Source: Cohnella algarum
Lineage (GTDB): Bacteria > Bacillota > Bacilli > Paenibacillales > Paenibacillaceae
Direction: 5' to 3'
Assembly: GCF_016937515.1 (NCBI RefSeq)
Contig: NZ_JAFHKM010000002.1
Span: 4,955,001-5,019,000, forward strand
DNA: 64,000 bases
Part shown: positions 25,471 through 60,073 of the stretch, piece after piece
Layout of the letters: every line of letters starts with the position of its first letter
Position numbering within the stretch: the stretch's first letter is position 1
Translations under genes and position numbers: made by a program
The notes under the pieces: model-generated
Databases searched by the model: none
Seen by the model: the letters and a program-made list of their open reading frames with translations, nothing else
What the model was told of the DNA's origin: nothing

Positions 25471-28121
25471 TTATGGCGAAGGCAGCACGTTCAACGCTTC
25501 TTCCGAATCGTTCAGCGGTACCGTACCCTGTTCGGGCGGCGGAGAAACGGTCGCGGGGTCCGCAGGCGCCTCGGATTCGATCGGGATATCTCCCCATGCT
25601 CCGTCGCCGCCTTCGTTTCCTTGCTCGCCGGTTCCGTTGCCGTTTCCTTGGCCGTTGCCGTTGTTGCCTTGACCGTTGCCGTTGCCATTTCTATTTCCAT
25701 TGCCTTCGCCGTTGCCATTTCCATTTCCATTGCCTTCGCCGTTGCCATTGCCGATTTCGCCTTGGCCGTTCCCGTTCCCGTTCCCATTGCCATTCCCATT
25801 GCCATTGCCGTTCCCGTTGCCGGGATTCTCCGGCGGGAGCTGCTCCCCTTCGCCCTCGCCGTTTTCAGGCGGAAGCTCGAGGTCGCTCGTCACGGTGACG
25901 CTCACGCCGCTCGAAGGCTCCCCTTCGGCGTCGAGCGCCGAAGAGTACGCTTTGACGTAATACGTGTACGTTTTGTCAGGCAAAATCGCAAAATCGTCGA
26001 AGGCGGGCTCGGCCGATTCAGCCAACAGCGCGAAGGAGGCTTCCGACGCTTCCTTGCGGTAAATCTTGTACGTAATATTGTCGCCTTCCACCGGGCTCCA
26101 GGTCAATTCGACCGCGACATTCTGCGTATTGTATTGACCGGCAAGCCCGGTCACGGCGTCCGGCCCTTTCGGTTCCTCCTGGACGTCGCCGGCGTCCGGG
26201 AACGATTTTTTCTCGTAATTTTTCAGCACGGACGTCATGACCTCGGAGAAGAGCGAAGCGGCCTGGCCGCTGCTTTTCTTCACGTAATGCTCCGCGTCCG
26301 TCTTGTCGTAGCCCATCCACACCGCGGCCGTCAGCTCCGGCGTGAAGCCGACGAACCAGACGTCGCGGTTGCCGCCGGAATCGATCCCCTCGATGCCGAG
26401 CTGCGTCGTCCCCGTTTTCCCGGCGACGGTGCGTCCGCTCACTTTCGCGCTTTTGCCGGTGCCGCCCGAAACGACGCCTTCCAGAAGCTCGCGAACGTAG
26501 TAAGCCGTCTGCTCGCTCATGACGCGGTTGTCGCCGGGCGTTTCGATGGAGTAAACGACCTCGCCGGAAGAGTCGGTAATTTCCGAAATGGTGTGCGGCG
26601 TCTGCAGCAGGCCGCCGTTCGCGAACGCCGCATACGCGTTCGCCATCTGAACGGTCGTGACGCCTTCCGAAAGCCCCCCAGCGCGATCGCCAGATTGCGG
26701 TCGTTTTCCCCGAGCTCGATGCCGAGCTTTTTGGCGAAATCGACGCCGGTGCCGACGCCGATTTCGTTCAGCAGCCAGACGGCCGGCTGGTTGACGGAAT
26801 CGCGGATCGCATCCTTCATGCTGATCGGGCCGACGTACTTGTTTCGGTTGGAGTCGGTCGGGCAATACTTGCCGTTGTCGTAACATACTTTATCGTCCCG
26901 CAGCGTCGACCACGGGTACCAGTCCCCGGTTTCGAGCGCGGGGCCGTAGGACACGATCGGCTTGAACGAAGAGCCGGGCTGGCGCTTGCTGTAGACGCGG
27001 TTCAGGTTTTTCGTGCTGTAATCCCGTCCGCCGGCCATCGCGACGATCGAGCCGTCGTGCTGGTTCATGATGACCATCGCGCCCTGCATCGGGATGTCGT
27101 CCACGCTCTCCTCGAAGTTGTCCGGGTCGGAGAACGCCTTCTCGACGGCCGCCTGGGCCGCCGTATCGATCGTCGTTTTGATCGTGTAGCCGCCCGTGAG
27201 CAGCTCTTCCTCGGTTTTGCCCAGCACGTCCTGCGCTTCCTCGACGACATAATCGAGAAACGCGGCGTATTGGGAGCTGTCCTCCGGCACGACGCTCGGA
27301 TCGTATTCGACGGCCATCGCCTGCTGCTTCTCGGCCTCCGTTATGATCCCCTGGTCTTCCATGAGCGTAAGGACGACGGCGCGGCGATCCATCGATTTTT
27401 CCGGATTTCGCACCGGGTTGTACGTGTTCGGCGCTTTCGGCATTCCGGCCAGCGTCGCGATTTGCCACAGCTCCAGGTCGTTCAGATCGTCGACGCCGAA
27501 ATAGTATTTAGCGGCCGTCTTGATGCCATATTGCCCTTTGCCGAAATAAATCCGGTTCAAATACAGCTCCAGAATCTCGTCCTTCGATTTATGGTTTTCG
27601 AGCGCCAGGGCGATCGAGGCTTCCGTGCCTTTGCGGAACAGCGTCTTGTCCGCGTTCAAAAAAATGTTCCTTGCGAGCTGCTGCGTAATCGTGCTCGCTC
27701 CCTCGACCGCGCTGCGGGCGATGATATCCTTGACGAGCGCCCGGCCGATGCCGAACAGATCGACGCCGCTGTGCTCGTAGAAGCGCTTGTCCTCGGTCGC
27801 GACGAACGCCTGCTGCAGCAGCTTCGGGATTTCGCTGATCGGGACGTACTCCCGGTTCCCTTCGAGAACGTACAATTTATCCAGCTCGTTGCCGTTGCTG
27901 TCGACGATGATCGTCGCTTTATCCATGTCGTTCAACTTGTTCATGTTTTGGCTCAAAATCCGTTCGCCGTTCAAAATGACGAGCAAATAGCCGAGGACGG
28001 CGCAAACGGCGAAAAACAAAAGGACGAACAGCAGCCAGATCCAGCCGGTTTTGCGCTTTTGCTTGGCTCCCTTCTTTCCGGAGCGCTTGGTGTTTTTCGC
28101 GGGCGGTGCGGTCTTGCTCAT
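25471..28121 (-). pseudogene. ponA: Class A penicillin-binding protein (PBP1A family), frameshifted
   Basis: From the ATG at 28121 (GGGGGAAA upstream): a basic tail, a transmembrane helix (WIWLLFVLLFFAVCAVLGYLL), a glycosyltransferase domain (EDKRFYEHSGVD, GASTITQQLARN) and a transpeptidase with SSFKP and SVN motifs. The frame breaks at 26674-26679, a run of six C, after LAIALGG; one more base restores LSEGVTTVQMANAYAAFANGG and the KTGTTQ motif. A fibronectin type III domain follows, then a long Gly/Asn-rich tail. The enzyme polymerises and cross-links peptidoglycan. Full length would be about 880 residues. Likely intact in vivo. Confidence 0.9.
25630..25830 (-). repeat. Hexanucleotide repeat encoding the Asn-Gly tail of the PBP
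   Basis: Imperfect tandem copies of GGCAAT/GGGAAC-type hexamers encode GNGNGN with interspersed GQ, GE and GR pairs. The repeat sits in the outermost, C-terminal part of the protein. Such a tract is prone to copy-number change. Confidence 0.85.
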
Positions 28122-56678: not shown

Positions 56679-56933
56679 TGTTGCCCCTCCAAAAAATTCA
56701 TGGTGATCGGCCGAGGATTTCGGCATTTTCCTATACATTCCATAATCATACAAGAAAAAATATTTGAGAAAAATAGGAAATCCGAGGGGAAATATGCAGA
56801 TGCCGCTCGGCGCATCGCGACCAAGGTCCTATGCCTTTGAATCGATTAGCAGCATCATCCTGCCTATCCCCTGCCAAATTTTTCTTATATAATGAACGAA
56901 GCGGTACATTTCATAAACAGGAGGCCGGAATAC

Positions 56934-58241
56934 ATGAACCAAGCCGTAGAAACGTTGTTCGTCAACACCTTCACGGATGGCATTTTGGACCCTGAAAAAG
57001 AAATGCTGGGCCCGGTCAAGGACGGAGGCCGCATCATCGCCAACACGGCTCCCGGATGCTGGGGCCCGATGATCACGCCGTGCCTGAAGGGCGGCCACGA
57101 AGTGACGAAGCCCGTCTATGTCGAAGGGGCGGAGGTCGGCGACGCGATCGTCATCCATATCAAATCGATCGAAGTGACCTCGATCGCCACTTCGTCGGGG
57201 AACGACAAGCCGGTGGAAGGCCGGTTTCTGGGCGATCCTTTCGTCGCCGTGAAATGCCCGGAGTGCGGCACCCTGCATCCGGAAACGGTCGTCAAGGGCA
57301 TCGGCCCGAAAGCGGTGCGCTGCTCCGGCTGCGATTCCGACATTACGCCTTTCGTTTTTACGAACGGTTATACGATTGCTTTCGATAAAGACGGCCTGGT
57401 CGGCGTCACGCTCCCGAAGGAAGCGGCCGAGCGGATTGCCGAGGACGGCCGCCGCTATATGCGAACGCCGGATCATTCGGTGCAAAACCCGATCGTCACG
57501 TTCGCCCCGCACGATCTCGTCGGCGTCGTGGCCCGGATGAGGCCGTTTTTGGGCCAGTTGGGCACGACGCCCTCCAAGGCGCTGCCCGATTCGCACAATG
57601 CCGGCGATTTCGGCTCGTTTCTCGTCGGCGCGCCGCATGCGTATGCCGTGACCGAGGACGAGCTGAACGAGCATCGCACGGACGGGCATATGGACATCAG
57701 CCGGGTTCGCGCCGGCGCGACCGTCATTTGCCCGGTCAAAGTTCCCGGCGGCGGCGTTTACCTAGGCGATATGCACGCGATGCAAGGCGACGGCGAAATT
57801 GCCGGGCATACGGCCGACGTCGCGGGAATCGTCCATTTGCAGGTTCGCGTGCTGAAGGGCGTGAACCTGGAAGGACCGATTTTGCTGCCGAACGTAGAGG
57901 ATTTGCCCTATACGGCGAAGCCCCTTACCGCGGCGGAACGGCTCGCGGCAGAAGCGCTCGCGAAGGAATGGAAGCTGAAGAAGACGGAAACCTCGCTCCC
58001 GCTGTCCGTCGTCGGAACGGGCAAATCGTTGAACGAAGCGACCGACAACGGACTCGCCCGCGCGGCCAAGCTGTTCGACGTCACGGTTCCGGAAATCATG
58101 AACCGGGCCACGATTACCGGCTCGATCGAAATCGGCCGCCACCCCGGCGTCATTACCGTCACTTTTCTGGCGCCGAAGCGCTATTTGAAGCAGGCGAAGC
58201 TTTACGATGCGGTGGACGAGCATTATCGAGATCGGGAGTAA
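56934..58241 (+). CDS. Acetamidase/formamidase family protein
   Basis: 435 residues from the ATG at 56934, which follows AGGAGG by 10 bases. The FmdA/AmdA fold is visible in GGRIIANTAPGCWGPMITPCLKGGHEV, VGDAIVIHIKSIEVTS, PDSHNAGDFGSFLVGAP, VRAGATVICPVKVPGGGVYLGDMHAMQGDGEIAGHTADVAG and ITGSIEIGRHPGVITVT. It hydrolyses formamide or short aliphatic amides to ammonia, using a metal site. Two CxxC pairs (KCPECG, RCSGC) form a likely zinc ribbon insert. A TATAAT at 56888-56893 lies 40 bases upstream. Confidence 0.9.
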   Translation: MNQAVETLFVNTFTDGILDPEKEMLGPVKDGGRIIANTAPGCWGPMITPCLKGGHEVTKPVYVEGAEVGDAIVIHIKSIEVTSIATSSGNDKPVEGRFLGDPFVAVKCPECGTLHPETVVKGIGPKAVRCSGCDSDITPFVFTNGYTIAFDKDGLVGVTLPKEAAERIAEDGRRYMRTPDHSVQNPIVTFAPHDLVGVVARMRPFLGQLGTTPSKALPDSHNAGDFGSFLVGAPHAYAVTEDELNEHRTDGHMDISRVRAGATVICPVKVPGGGVYLGDMHAMQGDGEIAGHTADVAGIVHLQVRVLKGVNLEGPILLPNVEDLPYTAKPLTAAERLAAEALAKEWKLKKTETSLPLSVVGTGKSLNEATDNGLARAAKLFDVTVPEIMNRATITGSIEIGRHPGVITVTFLAPKRYLKQAKLYDAVDEHYRDRE

Positions 58242-58289: not shown

Positions 58290-58564
58290 GGCGTATATCC
58301 TCAAGAAAAAACCGGGAGTTCGAAACCGATTGATGTCGAAACGTCAGAGCAAGGGCTCAAGCGCCGGTCGCTTTAATCCCGCGGATCAGGATGAAACTCC
58401 GGCCGCCCGGGCACTCTCGCCGCAGCTCGTCCTTGCTTTCCGGAGCATTTGCGGTTGCCGCCGTCCCCTACTCCTGAAGGTCGAATGCGGGTGCGGGTAT
58501 GATGGAACGCTTTTTGGAAAAACTCTCCGAGACGGACATTTTTACCGAAAGCGAGGTGACGACG

Positions 58565-58708
58565 ATGACGGGACGCAACAACAAGCCGGATAACGACGGA
58601 CCGGCGTCCTCCCCTTCCCGGCTGGATCAATTCGGGGACAAGCTGGCCGACAACTCTGCGCATCTGCCGAAAAAGAAGAAAAACCGGCCGAACCCTGACC
58701 GGTGCTAA
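58565..58708 (+). CDS. Small charged protein of unknown function
   Basis: 47 residues from an ATG preceded by GAGGTGA at 5 bases. The sequence is polar (RNNKPDNDGPASSPS, SRLDQFGDKLADNSAHLPKKKKN) with no membrane segment, and is not recognised. It ends 28 bases before the palindrome array. The good ribosome site is the main reason to regard it as real; it might be a sporulation-associated small protein, which is speculation. Confidence 0.5.
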   Translation: MTGRNNKPDNDGPASSPSRLDQFGDKLADNSAHLPKKKKNRPNPDRC

Positions 58709-58735
58709 CGCTGGCCTGGCACTGCCCATGCGAAT

Positions 58736-59276
58736 GTAGCGTACCGGGTGCGCTACATGGAGGGAGTTTGGCGCAGACAAGGCGATTGTAGCGCATCCAA
58801 TGCGCTACATGGAGGCCATTTCGCGCTGGCATGGCGAATTTAGCGCACCCAGTGCGCTACATGGAGGGAGTTTGGCAGCAGCGATGCGAAAGTAGCGCAC
58901 CCGGTGCGCTACATGGGGGCCATTTGGCGCTGGCATGGCGAATGTAGCGCACCCGGTGCGTTACATGGAGGGAGTTTGACAGCAGCGGTACGAATATAGC
59001 GCACCCAGTGCGCTACATGGGGGCCATTTGGCGCTGGCATGGCGAATGTAGCGCACCCGGTGCGTTACATGGAGGGAGTTTGACAGCAGCGGTACGAATA
59101 TAGCGCACCCAGTGCGCTACATGGGGGCCATTTGGCGCTGGCATGGCGAATGTAGCGCATCCAATGCGCTACATGGAGGCCATTTCACGCTGGCATGGCG
59201 AATGTAGCGCACCCAGTGCGTTACATGGAGGGAGTTTGGCAGCAGCGATGCGAAAGTAGCGCACCCGGTGCGCTAC
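58736..59276. repeat. Array of eleven 52-bp tandem repeats with palindromic core
   Basis: A 21-base palindromic core, GTAGCGCA, five bases (CCCGG, CCCAG or TCCAA), TGCGCTAC, begins at 58736 and recurs at exactly 52-base steps (58788, 58840, 58892, 58944, 58996, 59048, 59100, 59152, 59204, 59256). The 31-base spacers alternate between two types, one with GGAGGGAGTTTG, one with GGCCATTT and CGCTGGCATGGCG, so the array is close to a 104-base higher-order repeat. 52 is not a multiple of three, and no frame is open. The region 59277-59530 after it shows no gene. Confidence 0.95.
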
Positions 59277-59530
59277 TTGGCCAACAAGACGACCGGCACA
59301 CGACTCAGGACCGTTTGCGTGCGCTCGGAGGCGATGAAAGGAGTCATTTTTACTCTACTGCGTACGCTGCATGCGGATGGCGGGGTGAGGTGAGTCATCA
59401 CGACTCAACTGGACCCGCGAAGAGCCGAACCGGCTTCAGATTGGATAACGCGAGCGGCGTTCTCATGCCACGCAAGCTGCCAGAGCGCTTTCGCACGGTG
59501 AAGTTTAACTTCCCGTCCCTATTTAAAAAA

Positions 59531-59583: not shown

Positions 59584-59871
59584 TTACTCCTTCGACCGCT
59601 TCGCGAGCTGCTCCTGGGCCAGCCGAATCAGCTCGCGCACCATCGGGCCGCCGATTCTTCCGCCGACGTTGCCGACCGATTCGGTCGACAGCTCCCCGTT
59701 TCCGCCGGGTTCCAGCGGAACGCCCAGCGAATCGGCGACTTCGTACTTGACGTCGTCGGGACGGTTCGGATCGACCCGGTATCCTTCCCGCTTCATCACT
59801 TCGGCCTTGAATTCCCGCAGCCCTTGCTCGGCTCCCGGTACGACATGCCGTCTGGACCCTCTTCTGGCCAT
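59584..59871 (-). CDS. Alpha/beta-type small acid-soluble spore protein
   Basis: 95 residues from the ATG at 59871 (AGGAGGAG 4 bases upstream). The family core DVKYEVADSLGVPL, GNGELSTESVGNVGGRIGGPMVRELIRLAQEQL is clear; EFKAE at about residue 20 resembles the GPR germination-protease site. Such proteins coat spore DNA and protect it from UV and heat. It has a longer N-terminus (MARRGSRRHVVPGAEQGL) than B. subtilis SspA/B, as is common in Paenibacillaceae. Confidence 0.92.
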   Translation of the reverse strand: MARRGSRRHVVPGAEQGLREFKAEVMKREGYRVDPNRPDDVKYEVADSLGVPLEPGGNGELSTESVGNVGGRIGGPMVRELIRLAQEQLAKRSKE

Positions 59872-60073
59872 TTTCGCTCCTCCTGCTTCAAGCATCATCC
59901 ATCTTGCTTGTCGGGAGTTTCCCCGGAAAAGGAGGAGCTTATTCCCGGAGCTTCCGATTCGCGTTCGATTTCGCTTCGCGAAATAGCCGTACCGAAATTC
60001 GGGTTATAGAAGCCCCGGCTCCTCTCCCGTGTTCCGAAAGCTCGATCCGCGATTTCCGTTTGCGCGCATTCGG

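Follow-up and report, generated by a model that had tools for sequence, protein, structure and literature searches.

Palindrome arrays with a five-helical-turn period in Cohnella algarum and its relatives, possible platforms for DNA wrapping

What holds eleven palindromes at one exact spacing in a non-coding gap, and would such an arrangement be read as DNA, as RNA or not at all? The question is raised by positions 58736..59276 of the window, by which we mean the whole 64,000-nucleotide stretch of the C. algarum genome that was analysed. An earlier note, made from the letters alone, had described eleven 21-base palindromes at regular 52-base steps there, and reading of the sequence together with TRF bears this out. 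The palindromes are imperfect, have no assignable strand, share the consensus GTAGCGCAC-NNN-GTGCGCTAC and start at 58736, 58788, 58840, 58892, 58944, 58996, 59048, 59100, 59152, 59204 and 59256, so that all ten steps are exactly 52 bp. Between them lie ten 31-bp spacers (58757..59255, likewise strandless and read from the sequence) of two types in the order a,b,a,b,a,b,a,b,b,a, which preserves both the alternation that the note had seen and its single break after copies 8 and 9, where type b is doubled. The proposed unit of almost 104 bases is also recovered, since TRF at 58730-59280 returns a period of 104 (score 753) beside one of 52 (score 597), and the core mismatches are indeed only partly compensatory: the change from CCCGG to TCCAA keeps the arms paired, while GCGTTAC, TTAGCGC and ATAGCGC are uncompensated. 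The consensus spacer of this array has its A/T in helical phase with the ends of the palindrome (P 0.02).

The array is non-coding, as the note had held, in that a codon-usage gene finder predicts no gene over 58736-59276, and it occupies a convergent gap. On its left an acetamidase/formamidase family gene (FmdA-like; 56892..58241, plus strand; Pfam PF03069 and gene model) points to it, as does the nearby alpha/beta-type SASP gene on its right (59584..59898, minus strand; Pfam PF00269, E 5.5e-17, and gene model), which the note had correctly named. A 69-aa small ORF from the ORF list (58499..58708, plus strand) stands between the left gene and the array; its reality is uncertain, as it has no Pfam match at E 0.001 and was not accepted by the gene finder. 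When the neighbouring FmdA protein was used as a query against a contig collection of 84,980 species, seven loci were found, all in other genera. Elsewhere in the window, at 25634-25822, there is a degenerate 6-bp CCGTTG tandem repeat that looks like coding low-complexity sequence.

The earlier note underestimated the scale of the phenomenon. Allowing up to two mismatches, the window palindrome has 192 matches in the 6.21-Mb genome (two contigs), compared with 1 for a reversed-pattern control, and the window array is one member of a large dispersed genome-wide family, here called family A. Neither uniqueness nor an assembly artefact, the two prospects the note had set against its own reading, describes this array: 22 family-A arrays of 4 to 20 copies each were read, with one array that is split by an IS66 transposase gene entered as two, and arrays of the same period occur in other genomes. 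Further arrays were found with a sequence-only model built from 11 arrays; since scoring covered 150 of the 2039 first-look candidates, the catalogue is a lower bound. A length of 52 bp accounts for 201 of the 221 steps across the 22 arrays and 51 bp for 17, leaving one each of 49, 60 and 101, the last of which is probably a double step. The split array (L080:4598-8346, C2 6.17 Mb) comprises about 25 units interrupted by the IS66-family transposase gene, and because spacers are common to its two halves the IS insertion is later than the array. A lone family-A palindrome without an array, at L015:4049, is a possible founder or remnant.

Within each of the 22 arrays the spacers are much alike, with mean identities of 0.74-0.98, and this non-uniqueness rules out a CRISPR, as the note had argued, despite the likeness of regular palindromic repeats separated by spacers of constant length. 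Between arrays the letters diverge: over 210 pairs from the 21 arrays with a 31-bp spacer, the median best-orientation identity of spacer cores is 0.48. Whole spacers from different arrays are still more alike than shuffling allows (mean identity 0.54, versus 0.44 with shuffled core), so common descent contributes, and a few pairs are clearly related, with core identity up to 0.83 when the split array is excluded. End copies of the arrays are often decayed.

TRF on other stretches of this genome brought out three further core families, B, C and D. Family C (AACGGCC...GGCCGTT) forms five tandem pairs at four loci, and although spacings of 39-69 bp were allowed, 5/5 fall at 51 or 52 bp. Family D (GTAGTCC...CCCCTTC), which may be related to family A, also has a step of 51 or 52 bp. 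Family B (TGAGT-N7-ACTCA) often has two alternating units, giving 104 bp, and with spacings of 39-65 bp allowed it yields 173 tandem pairs in this genome, 57 in G020, 30 in G004, 12 in G015 and 0 in the remaining 33 of 37 genus genomes; among the matches listed, all of its steps are 51 or 52 bp except one of 60. The window itself holds a degenerate family-B remnant on the plus strand at 59340..59407, recognised from the sequence, with cores at 59340-59356 and 59391-59407 and a step of 51.

The family-A letters are confined to this species in our searches. The note had proposed a search of related genomes for the same palindrome; 0 of 59 relatives carry it at up to one mismatch, because relatives bear the same geometry in other letters. 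The exact pattern of two adjacent family-A palindromes likewise had 0 matches in contigs of 84,980 species, a collection from which own and near records may have been excluded. When searched with TRF, 37 stretches of congeners (738 kb) gave a period of 51 or 52 in 9 of 25 arrays, and 18 stretches of this genome (360 kb) gave 51, 52 or 104 in 8 of 19, one of these arrays lying in a stretch (L081) that adjoins a known array stretch and the other 17 stretches having been placed at round coordinates. Order-level outgroups (37 stretches, 740 kb) gave a period of 51 in 1 of 16 arrays and 105 in another 1 of 16. Congener cores differ in sequence, as in TGTAAGTCCGG-TGG-CCGGACTTACA of G008 and ATAACGGCAC-CCC-GTGCCGTTAT of G016, the latter found in about ten places, for the most part with a step of 51. 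One G016 array (L242:1657-2693, C1:4235657-4236693) has about twenty units at step 51 in a repeating three-unit pattern, which suggests recent block amplification. Outside the genus, in the order-level relative G057, a 51-bp unit containing a 20-bp palindrome is repeated thirteen times and shows strong A/T phasing at 10.2 bp (L204:15390-16046).

Palindromy in the arrays of period 51, 52 or 104 is common, not universal. Judged on TRF consensus units, it exceeds that of shuffled units (P<0.05) in 6 of 17 arrays, 2 of 8 in this genome and 4 of 9 in congeners, and the G006b and G003 arrays show none beyond shuffled units. Several 51-bp arrays retain an open frame, as a unit length divisible by three makes easier. 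Of the 18 arrays examined in other genomes, one overlaps the 3' end of a predicted gene, and for the other 17 any such overlap is at most 20 bp. As a candidate for shared ancestry at one locus, arrays near cshA in sister species were examined at 29 loci (of 35 matches), some of which end at contig ends, and rejected: a TRF array lies 3' of cshA only in G009, so there is no clear orthology.

At 10.4 bp per turn, 52 bp is five helical turns. We mapped A/T content onto the repeat unit and examined its harmonics in 16 array families, 15 of the genus and one from G057; because recombination copies the steps within one array, array families and not steps are the independent units. With all listed arrays of each family included (19 of 22 for family A), the mean share of the power in harmonic 5 is 0.175 and that in every other harmonic from 1 to 10 is at most 0.057. 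Taking one representative per family, harmonic 5, at 10.2-10.4 bp, is significant (P<0.05) in 9 of 16 families, three of the nine being neighbours in one G006 gap, with a Fisher combined p of about 2e-15; in the same representatives none of harmonics 1-4 and 6-12 reaches significance. Control 52-mers from non-array intergenic (n=1266) and coding (n=5191) sequence are flat. Phasing is absent from family B and from the G008 and G018 arrays, and harmonic 5 is individually non-significant in G013, G014, G026 and G033 (P 0.07-0.11).

In family A, phase with the palindrome ends is recovered from the spacer cores by themselves in all 21 arrays analysed, with P<0.05 in 16, though these arrays are not independent of one another. 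Averaged over the arrays, A/T is highest at unit positions 50-51, 21-22, 29-31 and 40-42; a fifth peak, expected at the palindrome centre, is missing there, the centre being GC-rich, and harmonic 5 makes up only 0.12 of the power in this family. Among 15 other tandem arrays, a significant 10.0-10.5-bp component is found at periods 41, 50, 105, 105, 112 and 114, and none at 31, 42, 46, 56, 57 and 65 or in three coding arrays. The phased periods 50 and 112 miss a whole number of 10.4-bp turns by 2 bp, and the unphased 46, 56, 57 and 65 are off-multiples as well.

Family A lies mostly between convergent genes. Of its 22 gaps, 15 are convergent, 6 tandem and 1 divergent, compared with 25, 106 and 41 among 172 control gaps of at least 100 bp (15/22 versus 25/172, Fisher p 2.8e-7; p 1.2e-5 when the control gaps are 300 bp or longer). 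Beyond family A the convergent bias is weak or absent. Family B lies in 9 convergent, 17 tandem and 3 divergent gaps, with 2 arrays at edges (9/29 convergent, p 0.056), and arrays of other genomes lie in 7 convergent (three of them in one gap), 8 tandem and 2 divergent contexts.

Orientation relative to replication sets the families apart in another way. GC skew is negative to 1.68 Mb, positive from 1.76 Mb and negative again from between 4.82 and 4.955 Mb, with values near zero at about 2.3 Mb. In 23 of 25 family-B clusters the strand that carries the T-loop core fits the half of the chromosome, plus in one and minus in the other, and the window remnant, with its T-rich loop on the plus strand, has the orientation of 13 of the 14 family-B clusters in the same half. 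When family B is oriented by spacer sequence, without reference to position, 28 of 31 arrays follow the replichore (0 of 20,000 permutations); this set, drawn from the matches listed and six sampled stretches, overlaps the 25 clusters. By loop composition 25 of 30 follow it. Of the arrays whose flanking genes converge or diverge, so that gene direction favours neither strand, 11 of 12 follow the replichore. Family A shows no significant orientation (13/21, permutation p 0.086). In G016 the loops mostly track GC skew and the spacers, judged by eye, do not flip, so composition may explain the orientation.

A near-constant five-turn unit, A/T on one helical face, spacers free in sequence and a convergent location together point to DNA bending or wrapping. 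We therefore favour a DNA-level reading, for which the near-constant 52-bp step despite divergent spacers and the A/T content at the helical repeat speak most directly, and of the roles that the earlier note had offered a protein-binding array stands as possible in this form, with the bound protein itself a matter of inference. Units of about five turns (51-52 bp) would place palindromes and A/T-rich steps on one helix face, and A/T on the same face would make the DNA easy to bend or wrap, so that the arrays could serve as platforms for a DNA-wrapping protein. By analogy with E. coli BIME-2, whose binding to gyrase is stated in PMC2817692, DNA gyrase would be the leading candidate and might act at the arrays by removing the positive supercoils that converging transcription generates, a role that has been proposed for BIME-2. 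That the arrays are helically phased architectural elements of this kind, comparable to the BIME-2 gyrase sites, we put forward tentatively, at slightly less than an even chance. At the same level of confidence, somewhat short of probable, the arrays may represent a class of integer-turn satellites that are selected as wrapping sites, across the genus and beyond, not for their sequence but for a geometry of five turns to the unit with A/T on one face; their reader would be gyrase or another wrapping protein, in a logic comparable to that of nucleosome-positioning repeats.

The supercoil function, and selection rather than array-wide copying as what keeps the geometry, are likewise inferred. 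The arrays could instead be non-functional satellites, with slippage, unequal crossing-over or a single-strand process coupled to replication spreading and homogenising their units, which would be best tolerated downstream of genes, with a period inherited from an ancestor and a phasing that reflects what amplifies well. Much would fit: copies are alike within arrays and decayed at their ends, some spacers of different arrays are related, the species-specific core suggests fast turnover, the orientation of family B is what replication-coupled spread would give, and promoter avoidance alone would enrich 3' ends. Neutral descent, however, poorly explains a constant 51-52 bp and A/T phase maintained at a median spacer-core identity of 0.48, and equally poorly an identical step in unrelated cores and species; we regard this account as rather unlikely.

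If the palindromes acted as RNA, their hairpins would shield mRNA 3' ends or end transcription, as proposed for REPs, and one palindrome would serve both converging transcripts. Arrays do lie downstream of genes, and folding is strong (z -4.5 and -4.3 for the window unit pair on the two strands, -1.4 to -4.3 for other arrays), but exact five-turn spacing and A/T phasing are not required for such a role, and family-A stems are not followed by U-tracts. The folding RNA that the note had entertained also lacks a strand signal: among arrays having a better-folding strand, it is the leading strand in only 12 of 18 for family A and 8 of 15 for family B, and in tandem contexts it agrees with transcription in 3 of 5 family-A arrays. 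Rfam gave one sub-threshold match in the window region, outside the array, and none credible, and at eight array loci only a T-box and an L10 leader reached gathering scores, both away from the arrays. We consider an RNA-level element improbable, and more doubtful still a role as arrays to which a protein of partition, segregation or replication polarity would bind by sequence, for which parS, Noc and KOPS are the comparison systems. Palindromes on the same face suit a dimeric binding protein, and family B is polar with the replichore even where genes converge or diverge, but the cores are wholly different between families and species, family A lacks significant polarity, and the loops of G016 flip with GC skew while its spacers do not.

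Among known repeat systems, we place the arrays with dispersed intergenic palindromic repeats, as a variant of these. They resemble BIME-2 in their intergenic rows of palindromes, their downstream or convergent location, their several to many copies per locus and, in part of the arrays, two alternating unit types with linkers (the 104-bp super-unit). They differ in sequence and in being direct repeats of self-complementary cores, whereas BIME-2 REPs alternate inverted; moreover, the step here is an integer number of turns, 10-bp A/T phasing is non-significant in the one E. coli BIME-2 region analysed (sucB-sucC, 274 bp, P 0.20), and no RAYT was found here. GTAG-tagged REPs that favour convergent and same-direction gaps have been described (PMC3733652), and by that account GTAG REPs and REPINs share with family A a palindrome of about 21 bp starting with GTAG, more than 100 copies, an intergenic position and a similar gap preference. 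The units here are, however, tandem at a fixed step, and GTAG pairs with CTAC at the other end of the palindrome instead of forming an unpaired tag at one end, as in REP/RAYT systems.

Mobilisation by a RAYT as the shared current engine is ruled out by array-bearing genomes without a Y1 transposase: PF01797 has no match in 25 of 37 genus genomes, including the array-bearing G003, G004, G006, G008, G015 and G016. This genome has three PF01797 matches, two complete proteins, presumably ordinary IS200 transposases, and a 36-position fragment. NIME/dRS3 of Neisseria, MIRU-type VNTRs and BOX are also intergenic and dispersed, with short, partly palindromic repeats arrayed in a number that depends on the locus, and here too the number of copies varies from locus to locus (4 to 20); to our knowledge none of them has an integer-helical-turn unit, phased A/T and species-by-species replacement of the core. 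A recent REP survey (PMC12306157) does not contain the terms Paenibacillus, Cohnella or tandem in its main text, and the titles and abstracts searched, which cover few subscription journals, hold no description of such arrays in this group. If the geometry is indeed selected, the arrays would be natural experiments on supercoiling or wrapping information stored in DNA shape, not sequence, and would provide gyrase or nucleoid proteins with substrates that are both long and strongly phased.

Two neighbours of family-A arrays may be recorded here. The gene of a ParB/Noc-domain protein, which scores below the curated Noc cut-off, adjoins one array (L076:4796-6007), and less than 1 kb from another there is a CRISPR-like array (L074:5058-5680) with the repeat GTTTCAATCCACGC..., which we take to resemble type I-C.
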